Source: Planctomycetaceae bacterium (GTDB taxonomy: Bacteria; Planctomycetota; Planctomycetia; Planctomycetales; Planctomycetaceae). Taken from it: a DNA stretch of 64,000 nucleotides. Shown piece by piece: positions 2,424-16,604 of the stretch. The notes below the pieces were generated by a model. That model worked only from the letters and a program-made list of their open reading frames with translations, was not told the origin of the DNA and ran no database searches. The DNA is taken from assembly GCA_014762625.1 (NCBI GenBank), contig JABURQ010000199.1, positions 1-64,000 of the forward strand. Reading direction: 5' to 3'. The position numbers were made by a program, and so were the translations under genes. How positions within the stretch are numbered: position 1 is the stretch's first letter; each line of letters opens with the position of its first letter.

Positions 2424-3182
2424 GTCAATCACGACCGCGGCGCCCGTCATATAAGCAGAAGCATCTGAGGCAAGGTAAACTGCCAACGGCCCCAGGTCTT
2501 CGGGATCGCCGTACGCACCGACCGGAATCATTTGGGAGAACTGCTCGACTACCTGCGGATGTTCTTTCGCCCAGCGCTGGTTCGGCTCGGTCATGAAACC
2601 GCCGGGACAGATCGCGTTCACGCGAATCCTGTCTTTGGCCCACTGGACCGCCGCGGTTCGCGTGAACTGGATCGCGGCCGCCTTGGAAACCTCGTAGGAG
2701 ACACCGCCGATGTTGGCATTCGCCACCAGACCCGAGATCGAGGCGATATTGACGATCGTCCCCGGTCGCCCTTCGGCCTTCATCCGGCCCCCCACATCCC
2801 GCGTCAACAGAAACATGCTGGTCAGGTTGAGATCGAGAATCTGCTGCCATTGTTCCAGCGTCTGCTCTTCGAGCGGCACGTTGATTCGCCTTCCGCCGAC
2901 GTTGTTGATCAGAATATCGATGCGATGTTCTGAGAGTATTTTCTGACTGAGTTGTTCGCACTCTGCGGGACGAGAGACATCCCCCACGACAGGAAACGCC
3001 CGGCGGCCTCGTTCTTCGATCTCTTTGGCAGTCGATGCGAGGCTGTCGGCGGAACGACCGACGAGGACGACATCCGCCCCCGCCTCGGCACAGGCCAGCG
3101 ACATCTCCCGTCCCAGCCCTTTACTCCCTCCGGTGATCAGCAACGTCTTTTGATCCAGTCGAAAACGGTCCAGAATAGTCAT
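2403..3182 (-). CDS. SDR-family NAD(P)-dependent oxidoreductase
   Basis: Classical short-chain dehydrogenase of 259 residues. The Rossmann glycine motif TGGSKGLG is near residue 18, NNVGG near 93, the catalytic Ser lies in IASISG, and the YxxxK pair in YEVSK. The C-terminus carries the family's PGGFMTEPN and VIDGGYT segments. Length and motifs fit the gluconate 5-dehydrogenase / 2-deoxy-D-gluconate 3-dehydrogenase branch, which interconverts sugar-acid ketones and alcohols in the cytoplasm; the substrate cannot be fixed from sequence. The ATG at 3182 is preferred to the TTG two codons upstream. Its 3' end overlaps the remains of the recombinase fossil on the other strand. Confidence 0.9.
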   Translation of the reverse strand: MTILDRFRLDQKTLLITGGSKGLGREMSLACAEAGADVVLVGRSADSLASTAKEIEERGRRAFPVVGDVSRPAECEQLSQKILSEHRIDILINNVGGRRINVPLEEQTLEQWQQILDLNLTSMFLLTRDVGGRMKAEGRPGTIVNIASISGLVANANIGGVSYEVSKAAAIQFTRTAAVQWAKDRIRVNAICPGGFMTEPNQRWAKEHPQVVEQFSQMIPVGAYGDPEDLGPLAVYLASDASAYMTGAAVVIDGGYTLC

Positions 3183-10769: not shown

Positions 10770-11588
10770 TCATTCCGCTGAAACCAACTCCATCGCCCCT
10801 CTCACCAGAGGCCCCATTTTTGGAGGAGAAGCCTCAAAGTCGACTTTCAGTCCACATTCGACCAAGGTTTCCGAACAGGTCGGTCCCACCGAACATATTC
10901 GGCTCCCCGAGAGCGATTGCTGGAACTCTTCCAGTCTGCCCAGCTCGTCCGCGACCTGCGTCACGTGGCGTATCTGTTGAGCGGACGTAAACATCAGCAC
11001 GCCAAAAGGGTTATCGATTTGTTCTTGGATGGCCGACTCCAGTGGCCCTCGATCCTCGGGTAAATCCCAGCGATAGACAATCACCGATTCAACGTCGGCA
11101 CCCGCATCACGCAAACTCTGTAGAAACTCTTCGTTGGAAATGCCGTATTCCTGGACGGCTATCTTCTTTCCTGACAGATCGAGTTCCTGTTTCATCGCAG
11201 TCAACATTTCCCGCCACGTATTCGGTTCTGGAGTTCGCACGGCAATTGGAACGTTCCACTCATTCAGAACTGCAGTCGGCTTGGGGCCGCGAACCACGAT
11301 CGTCATGTCGTGCAGTGCGGCCAGGAATTTCTCATGCGGGAATTGCGTTGCGATCGCCTCTGCCAGAAGCCGCGTCCCGACGCCTGTCATCAAAACAAGA
11401 ACATCGATCTCACCGGCAAAAAGTTTCTTCGCAAACTTGATGATGGCGGGTTGCCGATCGAGCGGAATTTCTCGCATGGACGGAGCGTTCGTCGCTCGAC
11501 CACCGAATTTTTCAATCAGCTTGCGCATTTCCTCCGCGCGACGGCTTTCAAAAGTGCAGATGCGCGGACAGGGATCGATTTGTGACAT
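10770..11588 (-). CDS. hemD: Uroporphyrinogen-III synthase
   Basis: 272 residues with the two-lobed HemD layout. The N-lobe begins RICTFESRRAEEMRKLI, then LVLMTGVGTRLLAEA, with the linker LNEWNVPIAVRTPEPNTW. The C-lobe contains FLQSLRDAGADVESVIVYRW, VLMFTSAQQIRHV and ICSVGPTCSETLVECGL. It closes and inverts ring D of hydroxymethylbilane. It is the first gene of the haem operon. A good -10 (TATAAT on the minus strand, 11617-11612) and a GGAGGA site at 11604-11599 lie directly upstream of the ATG. The candidate structured RNA ends about 95 bp further upstream. Confidence 0.88.
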   Translation of the reverse strand: MSQIDPCPRICTFESRRAEEMRKLIEKFGGRATNAPSMREIPLDRQPAIIKFAKKLFAGEIDVLVLMTGVGTRLLAEAIATQFPHEKFLAALHDMTIVVRGPKPTAVLNEWNVPIAVRTPEPNTWREMLTAMKQELDLSGKKIAVQEYGISNEEFLQSLRDAGADVESVIVYRWDLPEDRGPLESAIQEQIDNPFGVLMFTSAQQIRHVTQVADELGRLEEFQQSLSGSRICSVGPTCSETLVECGLKVDFEASPPKMGPLVRGAMELVSAE

Positions 11589-11598
11589 GTGAATCTAT

Positions 11599-11640
11599 TC
11601 CTCCAAGAAGAATTATAGAGAGGAATTTCCAGAGAATCAG
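11599..11640 (-). promoter_or_regulatory. Promoter and RBS of the hemD operon
   Basis: On the minus strand a consensus -10 TATAAT occupies 11617-11612. A poor -35 (CTGATT) lies 17 bp upstream. A GGAGGA Shine-Dalgarno at 11604-11599 precedes the hemD ATG (11588) by 10 nt. The short leader implied, about 15-20 nt, means the operon need not start from the RNA gene upstream. Confidence 0.5.
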
Positions 11641-11683
11641 CCCGGAGAAAAGTAAGGGCTTGCATTTGGGCCATAATCAGCGC

Positions 11684-11878
11684 AAAAAAGAAACCTCGTC
11701 CAGGGTAGTCGACCGGAAGCGAAGGCGCTCGCCCGGAAAGGTATCCACACAGATACACTCCGGCTTCACCCCCGGCCGAACTACACCCAGAAGACGAGGT
11801 AACTTTCAGTCATCATCCGTGGGCCTTCCAATGATGACTGTCTTCCACACACGTAACGAGGTATTGGCATTTGCCGTA
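11684..11878 (-). ncRNA. Candidate structured small RNA upstream of hemD
   Basis: The minus strand folds into three units. H1 (11880-11860): GGUA/UACC plus GGCA/UGCC. H2 (11840-11807): a perfect 10-bp stem CAGTCATCAT/ATGATGACTG with a 14-nt loop. H3 (11800-11693) is a multibranched domain: an 8-bp closing helix ACCTCGTC/GACGAGGT (perfect), a helix GGGT/ACCC plus AGT/ACT, a 7-bp helix (11710-11716 with 11772-11778), then a junction bearing a 5-bp hairpin (11732-11728 with 11723-11719) and an arm CCGGA/TCCGG (11733-11737 / 11759-11763) topped by GTATC/GATAC with a 6-nt loop. Positions 12/76 and 23/28 of the 117xx block are A.C mismatches on the plus strand but G.U pairs on the minus strand, which favours a minus-strand transcript. 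The closing helix is followed on that strand by TTTCTTTTTT (11692-11684), as in an intrinsic terminator. It does not match 5S, SRP, 6S, tmRNA, RNase P or riboswitch consensus known to me. Confidence 0.55.
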
Positions 11879-11883
11879 CCAGC

Positions 11884-11912
11884 TTTAAACCTTTTCCCCA
11901 CTTTTGCGTAAA
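11884..11912 (-). promoter_or_regulatory. Promoter-like sites for the structured RNA
   Basis: Minus strand: -35 TTTACG (11912-11907), 17-bp spacer, -10 TTTAAA (11889-11884). Transcription would begin near 11880-11875, at or just inside the first hairpin of the candidate RNA. The match to consensus is moderate. Confidence 0.4.
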
Positions 11913-12170
11913 CCCCTTAATAACAGAGGGTTAATGAAAATCAGTTTTTTCTCTCGCAGTTCGTGATCGGAGAGATTGACGCCCAGACGCGCAGCAATTG
12001 CTCACACAGTGCGCGCTCTGGAGGCCTTCCAGTGCCTGTATTCGCCACCCGCTTGGAGCGATCCCAGACTCTGATGCTGGAATTCCCAGTACACACTTGC
12101 CGACGCTGATCAAAAACCGCATGATCCGTGTGATGTCAGAGCCAGGAATTGATGAGACGGGTGGGATGTC
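11913..12170. other. Remainder of the divergent interval
   Basis: About 250 bp between the RNA promoter and the MBL-fold gene. It contains a weak AACCC/GGGTT inverted repeat (11911-11935) and a GCAATTGC palindrome near 11995. No coding sequence is convincing. A promoter for the plus-strand MBL gene must lie here, but no strong -35/-10 pair stands out. Confidence 0.3.
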
Positions 12171-12965
12171 ATGACGACGGAAAAGCTTTCCTCAGGGATG
12201 ACCCTCATGGGAACCGCAACCAGCGTCGGCGTTCCCGTGGTCGGCTGTGATTGCGAGGTCTGTACCTCGGACGACCCCCGAAATCAGCGGTTGAGAACCT
12301 CGGTGCTCGTGAGAGCTCCCGAAGGAAATTTCGTCATCGACACACCTCCCGAGCTTCGGCTTCAGTTGATTCGTGAAAACGTGAAACTGGTACATGCCGC
12401 GCTATTTACTCATGGCCACGCGGATCATATTTACGGCCTGGACGATCTCCGCATCTTCGGCTATCGACTGAAGCAGGATATCCCGCTCTACTGCGAGCCG
12501 AGCGTGGAGGGACACCTCAGAAAAGCATTTTACTACTGTTTTGAACCTCCCAAATTCAATTCTCACCATTTCGCAGTGCCGAAATTGAACTTTGAGAATA
12601 TTGGCCTGGAACCCTTCGACCTGCTCGGGTTTCGGATCGTTCCGATTCGTCTGATGCACGGCAAAATGCCCGTTCTCGGTTACCGCGTGAATGACGTCGC
12701 ATTTTGCACGGACGTGAGCGAGATCCCCGACGAAAGCTGGGGAAAACTGGAAGGGCTCGACACGCTCGTCATCGATGCACTCCGGGATGAGCCGCACCCG
12801 ACTCACTTCTCAGTGGAACAAAGCCTCGCCGCTATCGAAAGAATCCAGCCCAGGCGTGCCTATCTAACTCATATCTCCCATTCGCTCGAATATACGGAAC
12901 TGAATCAACGACTACCTGAGCATATCGAACCTGCCTATGACGGGTTACAGATTGCTATCAACTGA
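12171..12965 (+). CDS. MBL-fold metallohydrolase, PhnP-like
   Basis: 264 residues. The metal motif THGHADHIYGLDDLR (HxHxDH) lies near residue 80, with further ligands in LMHGKMPVLGYR, FCTDVSEIP and YLTHISHSLEY. The N-terminal CDCEVCTSDDPRNQRLRTS carries the CxCxxC structural zinc site typical of the PhnP/phosphoribosyl cyclic phosphodiesterase branch. It probably hydrolyses a cyclic phosphodiester in the cytoplasm. No phn genes are nearby, so a role in phosphonate breakdown is not supported by context. A GGGTGGGA-like site precedes the ATG. Confidence 0.85.
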   Translation: MTTEKLSSGMTLMGTATSVGVPVVGCDCEVCTSDDPRNQRLRTSVLVRAPEGNFVIDTPPELRLQLIRENVKLVHAALFTHGHADHIYGLDDLRIFGYRLKQDIPLYCEPSVEGHLRKAFYYCFEPPKFNSHHFAVPKLNFENIGLEPFDLLGFRIVPIRLMHGKMPVLGYRVNDVAFCTDVSEIPDESWGKLEGLDTLVIDALRDEPHPTHFSVEQSLAAIERIQPRRAYLTHISHSLEYTELNQRLPEHIEPAYDGLQIAIN

Positions 12966-12984
12966 ATTCGACTCGGAGCCTCCC

Positions 12985-13365
12985 GTGGAAACAGACGAAC
13001 GACACATGCTGGCCTTTGCGATTCTGAGTGTCGAATCTCGGGAACGACAGCAAATACAGGGAGAGCTACGGTTTCTACTTATGACGGGAACTGCCTCCTG
13101 CCGCGCAGGCTACGCCCAAATTTCGAGATTCTGCTACAAGCGTATTCTGAAACTCAATCCGCATCACATGCTCTCAAAATCCCCCTCCCTGGAGGAAGCA
13201 CTCAAATCAGAGGATTTTCGGACGCTGATCAGTCGTCTGGACCGTTTCTGCACTTACGAACACGCGGAGATGTTGCTCGAAAAGCACCGTCCCGGCTGGG
13301 AAAGCGAGCCGTATGAAGAGTTCGAAAAACACTGCCTCGAGATTCTGAAACAGAATCTTAACTAG
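12985..13365 (+). CDS. Conserved hypothetical protein, 126 aa
   Basis: Small soluble protein with a run of conserved-looking aromatic, cysteine and charged residues (SCRAGYAQISRFCYKRILKL; FRTLISRLDRFCTYEHAEMLL). I choose the GTG at 12985 because a GGAG site sits 8 nt upstream. An upstream ATG at 12937 would overlap the MBL gene by 29 bp. It follows the MBL-fold gene by 19 bp and is probably co-transcribed with it. The 3' end overlaps the convergent proline-rich protein gene by 4 bp. No function is recognised. Confidence 0.65.
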   Translation: METDERHMLAFAILSVESRERQQIQGELRFLLMTGTASCRAGYAQISRFCYKRILKLNPHHMLSKSPSLEEALKSEDFRTLISRLDRFCTYEHAEMLLEKHRPGWESEPYEEFEKHCLEILKQNLN

Positions 13366-14594: not shown

Positions 14595-16604
14595 TTATCC
14601 GATGGATTTCTTAGAGACGTCGGACGGTTTCTTCGGGGGGTCGGTTGCAACCTGACTCTCCGTTTTTCGACCCGATGCTTCAAATTCTCCAGTATCCTCC
14701 TGATCGATTTCTTCGAGGGCGATGGAGGGCGGTTGGTCAGTATGCTTGAGCACCAGAATTCCAAGAGGCGGTAAAAACAGCGACACCGATTGCGGCAGGC
14801 CGTGCATGGCAATGCTTTCGGACATCACCCCGCCGATGTTTCCGACGTTGGAGCCGCCGTAATGTTCGGAGTCAGAATTCATCACTTCCTGATAATACCC
14901 TTTTTCAGGGACCCCAATGCGATAGTTTCCGCGTGGAACGGGAGTGAAGTTACAAATCACGATCAGCGATTCGGAATTTTCCCGATTCGTCCGAATCCAG
15001 GCGAAAACGCTGTTCTGCCAGTCATCGGCCTGAATCCACTGGAAGCATCCCGGCTCACATTCACCGTCGTAAAGAGCGGGCTCGTTGCGATAGAGCTGAT
15101 TCAAATCACCAACAAACCTGCGCAATCCATCGTGGAACATATGGCCTTCGAGCGCCCAGTCCAGTTCTTCGTCATGATTCCATTCCGTCCACTGACCTAA
15201 CTCTCCCCCCATAAACAGAAGTTTTTTACCGGGGGAGGTGTATTGATAACCGTAGAGGATTCGCAAATTCGCGAACTGCTGCCAGTAATCGCCCGGCATT
15301 TGCGAAAGCAGCGAACGCTTACCGTGAACAACTTCATCGTGCGAGAGCGGCAAGACAAAATTTTCGGTGAAGGCATACATCATCCGAAACGAGAGTTCGT
15401 TCTGGTGGTAAGAACGATGAACGGGATCGTTACGCAGGTAGCTGAGAGTGTCGTTCATCCACCCCATATCCCACTTCATCGAAAAGCCGAGCCCTCCGGT
15501 ATAAACCGGACGCGAGACTCCGCCCCACGAAGTGGACTCTTCGGCGATCGTCAGAATGCCGGGAAAGTCACCATGTAATTGAGTGTTCAATTCCTGGAGG
15601 AATTCAATGGCCCCCAGATTCTCCCGTCCGCCGTATTTGTTCGGTATCCACTCTCCCTCTTCGCGGGAATAGTCGAGATACAGCATCGACGCGACGGCGT
15701 CGAAACGCAAACCATCGACGTGATACACATCTGCCCAAAAACGGGCACTCGACCACAAAAATTCCTTCACCTCAAACCGGTCGTAATTAAAGACCAAGGT
15801 CCCCCAGTCGGGATGAGCGCCCTGTCTGGGGTCGGCATGCTCGTAACAAGCCGTGCCGTCAAATTGCGCCAGGGAATGTCCGTCGCGCGGGAAGTGCGCG
15901 GGAACCCAGTCAATCAAGACCCCGATTCCAGCTTGATGACAGAGATCGACGAACTCCATAAAGTCCTGCGGTGTTCCATACCTCGACGTCGGTGCGTAGA
16001 AACCGGTGACCTGATATCCCCACGAACCATCGAACGGGTATTCAGTAATCGGCATCAACTGCAGATGGGTGTATCCCATCTGCCGGCAATACTCGATGAG
16101 TTGCGGTGCGAGCTCTTTGTAACTGAAGTAACGGCGCCCGTCCGTCGGTTTTCTCCACGATCCCAGGTGAACTTCGTAGATCGAAACCGGTTCGTTGTAC
16201 CAATCGGTTTCTTGCCGTTTGCGGATCCAATCCTCATCTTTCCAGGAATATCCAGACATATCCCAGATGATCGAACCCGATTTCGGAGGGCTCTCGCAGT
16301 GAAACGCCACGGGATCTGATTTTTCAATCACTTCACCCGATTGAGTTTTGATGGCGAATTTGTAGATATCACCATGTTTCGCTCCAGGAACAAAACCACT
16401 CCAGACACCTCGATCGGAGGGAGCCAGTGGATTTGCACCAGGGTTCCAGCGATTCTGGTTCAGAAGAACCGAAACCTCGGTCGCGTTGGGAGCCCACACG
16501 GAAAAGTGTGTCCCGCTCTTGCCGTCTATCGTGAGAGGGTGAGCCCCTAGATCGCGATAACGGCTTGTGGCAGAAACCGGACCTTCGGAAAATTCGACGG
16601 TCAT
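14595..16604 (-). CDS. glgB: 1,4-alpha-glucan branching enzyme
   Basis: 669 residues. An N-terminal CBM48 domain (about 25-115, [17 protein letters not shown]) is followed by a GH13 catalytic barrel. The nucleophile is Asp302 ([12 protein letters not shown]), the acid/base Glu355 (TIAEEST) and the transition-state stabiliser Asp423 ([12 protein letters not shown]). The C-terminal all-beta domain is complete. It then has an unusual hydrophilic extension of about 45 residues ending [12 protein letters not shown]. The enzyme makes alpha-1,6 branches in glycogen in the cytoplasm. No other glycogen gene is adjacent, so glgB stands alone here. Confidence 0.95.

Follow-up and report, generated by a model that had tools for sequence, protein, structure and literature searches.

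A candidate sigma-54-switched small RNA with an almost invariant side bulge in Planctomycetaceae

In Enterobacteriaceae, the small RNA GlmY is described as being transcribed from a sigma-54 promoter driven by QseF and as acting as a decoy that sequesters the protein RapZ (PMC7073468, PMC6075780). Planctomycete small RNAs seem to be poorly characterized, and a full-text search for Planctopirus limnophila together with small RNA gave no papers. The Rhodopirellula-1 motif is listed as a structured RNA candidate for planctomycetes and proteobacteria (PMC2864571), and a sigma-54 regulon study links sigma-54 in Planctomycetia to chaperone and stress genes (PMC12316311). Here we analysed a 64,000-nucleotide stretch of a Planctomycetaceae genome (the window), in which a minus-strand structure looks, from its sequence, like a stand-alone small-RNA gene. 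Its downstream neighbour is hemD (10770-11588, minus strand; Pfam HEM4, 108.5 bits) and its divergent upstream neighbour an MBL-fold gene (12171-12965, plus strand; Pfam Lactamase_B_2, 116.5 bits). The end of the latter is overlapped by a 142-aa ORF (12937-13365, plus strand) with no Pfam match and with relatives of about 59% identity in two genus members.

A preliminary description of the locus had placed a multibranched RNA at 11684-11880, with a chain of helices, an 8-bp closing stem and a U-rich tract, all of which are present in the sequence and in the fold. The structure within that interval is real, but the RNA itself would be shorter, with a promoter-like element sitting at the interval edge. 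We predict a small RNA of about 172 nt (11684-11855, minus strand), the 5' end of which was placed at 11855 from the -12 element and is uncertain by a few bases. From 5' to 3' it would contain a hairpin (CAGUCAUCAU ... AUGAUGACUG, 11807-11840), the 5' side of the closing stem (11793-11800), the conserved core (11706-11779), the 3' side of the closing stem (11693-11700) and a U-rich tail as the predicted 3' end (11684-11692), the U-rich tract reading UUUCUUUUUU at 11693-11684. The core, which scores 83.1 and 76.5 bits with the covariance models R1 and R2, is built of a long hairpin P1, an upper hairpin P2 (11733-11763) and an 8-nt side bulge (11725-11732), which is GCGAGCGC here and RYGAGCGC in the family. 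The 5' hairpin, found in the fold, is genus-specific, being present in the genus copies L101-L103 and, by inspection, not seen in other genera. The trimmed transcript (11855-11684) folds at -85.2 kcal/mol (z -6.44). Over the whole interval, the minus strand reaches -93.1 kcal/mol (z -6.95), a value equalled by none of 200 shuffles, and the plus strand a weaker -70.8 kcal/mol (z -5.00). Two positions with G.U on the minus and A.C on the plus strand had originally been cited for a minus-strand RNA; the evidence turned out larger than claimed, the fold of the predicted transcript containing nine G.U pairs. The remark that the structure matches no nameable RNA family also held: Rfam gave no match in the window at its thresholds, only one unrelated weak match up to E 10 within 11400-12200, and no match at 14 relative loci.

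Conservation and covariation in relatives, both proposed as checks in the preliminary description, were found. In a BLAST search of 40 genomes, the window's own included, only the two further members of the genus had near-full-length copies (93% and 90%); matches in other genomes were short and weaker, and several fell on the core hairpin. In an alignment of the three genus copies with their flanks, three-way identity per 25 bases is 0.72-0.96 between 11849 and 11675; beyond this island it falls to 0.08-0.60, the promoter region apart (0.44-0.56). The island extends from about 11852 to the U-run, and with the promoter included conservation spans promoter to U-run. Matches in other genera share the long stem P1, the upper hairpin P2 and, between them on the 3' side, CGGGCGAGCGCC; the CGGGCGAGCGCCY motif alone is unspecific, with many matches in sequence lacking the hairpin. 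Sixteen seed sequences, four of which (one L009 copy, L055, L057 and L062) came from the motif and the rest from BLAST, were aligned with MAFFT and gave a consensus of 23 pairs, 14 of them with compensatory changes. The covariance model built from these seeds led to a set of 92 copies at 90 loci in 89 genomes, comprising 81 distinct sequences. Left out of the 90 loci were the positive genomes G088 and G110 (best 38.7 bits) and the second matches of G126, G112, G060, G024 and G088; three weak matches were also removed ahead of counting, of which two lay opposite known copies on the reverse strand and one was cut by a contig end. Among the 81 distinct sequences, 95.4% of pair cells held a standard pair and two-sided changes occurred at 18 of the 23 pairs, in 299 cells as against 68.7 in shuffles. 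Shifting the partner by 1-3 columns lowered pairing to 31-44%. The 92-copy alignment was structure-fitted, and the MAFFT-aligned seeds give the same picture. Since G.U cells outnumber A.C cells 186 to 23, the minus strand is taken as the RNA strand; model-based selection biases this count towards G.U, and the seeds, largely free of that bias, give 31 to 2. The GAGCGC of the bulge is identical in all 81 distinct copies. The first bulge base is A in 16 of the 81, so that a two-pair stem drawn within the bulge is not proven and we treat the segment as a conserved 8-nt bulge. This comparative evidence supports a minus-strand structured RNA with family-wide conservation and covariation.

With the covariance model, 91 of 120 Planctomycetaceae genomes show the core, 83 of them with one match and eight with two. 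The preliminary description had named a dispersed REP-type repeat as the outcome that would speak against an RNA; the element is not dispersed, with a single copy in its own genome. Because 29 of the 120 family genomes gave no match, the RNA is not one that every member of the family needs. Scanning genome contigs with a stricter motif returned 24 stretches, all 24 from planctomycetes, Schlesneria and Planctomicrobium among them. Of 392 phylum genomes, searched less sensitively with only 12 candidates scored per genome, 26 had matches, 25 of them in the family and one in G217 (E 0.0099), and a search of 39 chosen genomes (29 of the same class outside the family and ten RNA-negative family members) returned only G451 (E 0.045). 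By eye, the G217 match is a different long hairpin without the core arrangement and the G451 match has no GAGCGC nearby, and neither looks like a member. Confirmed members outside Planctomycetaceae thus number none among the 392 phylum genomes and the 39 chosen ones. Tandem core copies were seen at two loci: L157 (G101) carries copies at 3001-3068 and 2717-2784, and L108 (G017) at 1384-1457 and 1501-1574, with a third cut by the contig end from 1682. The 260 nt before the L108 copies hold no good sigma-54-like site, and G017, an incomplete genome, yielded no rpoN domain.

Promoter-like sites at the 5' end had been suggested, and this stood in part: no sigma-70-like promoter was found at the locus by scan, but a sigma-54-like -24/-12 element, TGGTACGGCAAATGCC, lies at 11866-11881 on the minus strand (-24 GG at 11880/11879, -12 GC at 11868/11867). 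It scores 13.0 of 16, departs from the consensus at two positions and would serve as the promoter. The three genus copies share its first 15 bases, TGGTACGGCAAATGC, without a difference, and the bases that follow, forming the spacer from promoter to start, have diverged. Taking the best weighted consensus match within 260 nt upstream and a threshold of 13 of 16, such an element precedes 80 of the 92 copies, compared with 3 of 92 in reverse-complement and 6 of 92 in shuffled controls; 12 copies have no site at this threshold. Among the 80 scoring copies, the -24 GG and -12 TGC hardly vary, partly through the selection itself. A single score of at least 13 is no proof of a promoter, as 5 of 28 hemD upstream regions from match-free genomes reach it within 800 nt. 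The rpoN domain (PF04552) is present in 113 of the 120 genomes, the window's own included. Counts of k-mers and dyads upstream of the promoter gave no clear enhancer site. One further locus, L251 (G010), has four tandem 15-nt sigma-54-like repeats about 225 to 165 nt before a hemD match, possibly a mere repeat. The distance from promoter to core ranges from 15 to more than 200 nt. Ten copies with the tightest spacing have only 15-18 nt between promoter and core; there the start would fall a few bases before P1, so that the hairpin would make up nearly the whole predicted RNA.

At the 3' end, a T-rich tail (at least five T in eight bases, within 30 nt of the core) follows 74 of the 92 copies; for the stretch lying 60-90 nt farther downstream the count is 26 of 92. 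Of the shuffled tails, 56 of 92 reach the same T content, so both base composition and runs make the tail rich in T. A terminator scan found none at the locus; its definition, a simple stem whose loop measures 3-8, does not cover a branched hairpin like this one. These tails, together with the fact that terminator stems covary too, would suit an element that does no more than terminate or insulate an upstream transcript, as an intrinsic terminator of unusual length. We regard this as improbable: a terminator does not need an invariant bulge, the window's upstream gene is divergent, and a sigma-54-like element stands just before the hairpin, at a distance of only 15-18 nt in ten copies.

The position of the RNA next to hemD had led to speculation about a haem- or porphyrin-responsive role. 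As a cis-acting, riboswitch-like hem leader or attenuator, the RNA would sense haem or a precursor, its hairpin terminating transcription unless the ligand prevents it. Such a leader would fit the window, where hemD starts on the same strand about 95 nt after the U-run, and the 29 of 90 loci with hemD 3' of the RNA. In 61 of 90 loci, however, no hemD lies 3' within the fetched flank, and 20 of the 90 have on that side a neighbour from a shared cluster (6, 13, 17 or 20) that points towards the RNA. The MBL gene lies 5' of the RNA in 21 of 90 loci. All these neighbour counts are lower bounds from mechanically called ORFs, since the flanks reached at most 1.5 kb at 30 loci and at most 3 kb at the other 60, and less at contig ends. 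Family genomes without the RNA keep hemD in the absence of any core: hemD was found in 28 of 30 genomes that lack a confirmed copy (25 from the family and five others), none of the 28 upstream regions contained CGAGCGC within 800 nt, and none of the 24 family hemD loci in RNA-negative genomes gave a model match better than E 0.25. In a hemD tree, 15 RNA-negative rows form one clade (100/98); only this clade is used here, the rows L005 and L006 being duplicate positives that put the count of changes off. At five loci (L183-L187) the next gene is related (65-68% identity) to the window gene at 14595-16604, which encodes an alpha-amylase-family protein with a CBM_48 domain, and these loci are therefore taken as the same old neighbourhood. 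A hem leader is thus distinctly unlikely and the haem role did not hold; judged from these gene orders, hemD is an old neighbour of the RNA and not its theme.

We therefore favour, with a probability of about 0.72, a stand-alone, usually single-copy, sigma-54-switched and trans-acting small RNA of Planctomycetaceae that presents its bulge to a partner. What speaks for it in the sequence data is the fold and its strand, conservation throughout the family, a promoter-like element, T-rich tails on most copies and the independence from hemD; transcription, sigma-54 control, termination and action in trans are what we infer from them. Sigma-54 polymerase, fired by an enhancer-binding protein, would first transcribe a 5' segment that varies in length and after it the core hairpin; the base of this hairpin, together with the U-run, would end transcription. 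The mature RNA would be a long hairpin displaying the almost invariant side bulge RYGAGCGC for recognition by a partner. The likeliest partner would be a protein titrated or steered by the RNA, as RapZ is by GlmY in E. coli, and the alternative an mRNA pairing with the bulge. Hfq was found in none of 38 Planctomycetaceae genomes, which makes an Hfq-assisted base-pairing small RNA unlikely. A more specific version can be offered tentatively, as something we would sooner doubt than assert: an Hfq-free, family-wide planctomycete decoy switched by sigma-54, whose branched hairpin would be terminator and business end in one and whose GAGCGC bulge would be captured by an RNA-binding protein, following the GlmY principle with its own partner and in another phylum. 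The reported link of sigma-54 to chaperone and stress genes would fit a possible role of the RNA in stress.

CsrA would be another candidate for a titrated protein, the RNA then being a sponge of the CsrB/RsmY kind. CsrA matches occur in 38 of 38 genomes (5-17 per genome) and the window RNA contains six GGA, one of them in CACGGAUG; across 67 predicted transcripts, however, GGA is not enriched (206 observed, 204.9 expected) and 29 GGA are largely unpaired, so that a sponge appears hardly probable. For this count, 67 of the 80 copies with a site were used, identical cores and 5' parts longer than 170 nt being left out. CsrA itself is multi-copy, with nine matches in the window's own genome. An mRNA for a small protein with a structured 3' end is suggested by 5' parts of at least 100 nt in some copies, and is very improbable given that the ten closest-spaced copies have hardly any 5' part and that the core is conserved as structure. 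Least credible of all is a DNA element not used as RNA (a palindrome, REP or recombination site), which would account for the long inverted repeat but not for the excess of G.U over A.C, the usual single copy per genome or a promoter-like element on one side.

The favoured small RNA was found in 91 of 120 genomes; with its predicted switch and its bulge that hardly varies, it would offer a bait for pull-down, a target for deletion and a reporter of sigma-54 signalling. The RNA was not described in the literature searched, including PMC11109978, PMC8632094, PMC2864571, PMC12316311 and PMC9029176, a coverage outside which lie most subscription papers and bioRxiv. The table row of the Rhodopirellula-1 motif gives no Rfam accession, and scans against Rfam may therefore miss this motif. 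Terminator stem candidates from screens of intergenic regions (PMC11109978) are likewise covarying hairpins followed by U; as set out there, that category is a plain single hairpin, whereas the RNA described here adds an invariant bulge and a sigma-54-like promoter, and planctomycete terms are absent from that paper's main text. With 6S RNA (RF00013) it shares a single copy, a structured fold and a similar length; the predicted RNA has no RF00013 match, and separate 6S-like matches lie at other loci, over the Rfam cut-off in 12 of 25 genomes searched. A possible divergent 6S RNA in the window's own genome (G000:C17:5610-5795) scores 34.5 bits, below the cut-off of 46.4. CsrB and RsmY resemble it as possibly protein-titrating small RNAs where CsrA is present and differ in that GGA is not enriched here. 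The kind, a sigma-54 small RNA, is known; the family, the single-hairpin build with an almost invariant bulge and the occurrence in a group in which Hfq was not found look new. To GlmY, no sequence relation was seen (no GlmY/GlmZ Rfam match), the phylum is another one and what is conserved here is one branched hairpin. The predicted RNA resembles GlmY as a small RNA with a putative -24/-12 promoter and a structured element proposed to capture a protein, and GlmY, as far as the accounts cited describe it, may serve as the nearest working model, in likeness of principle and not by membership.
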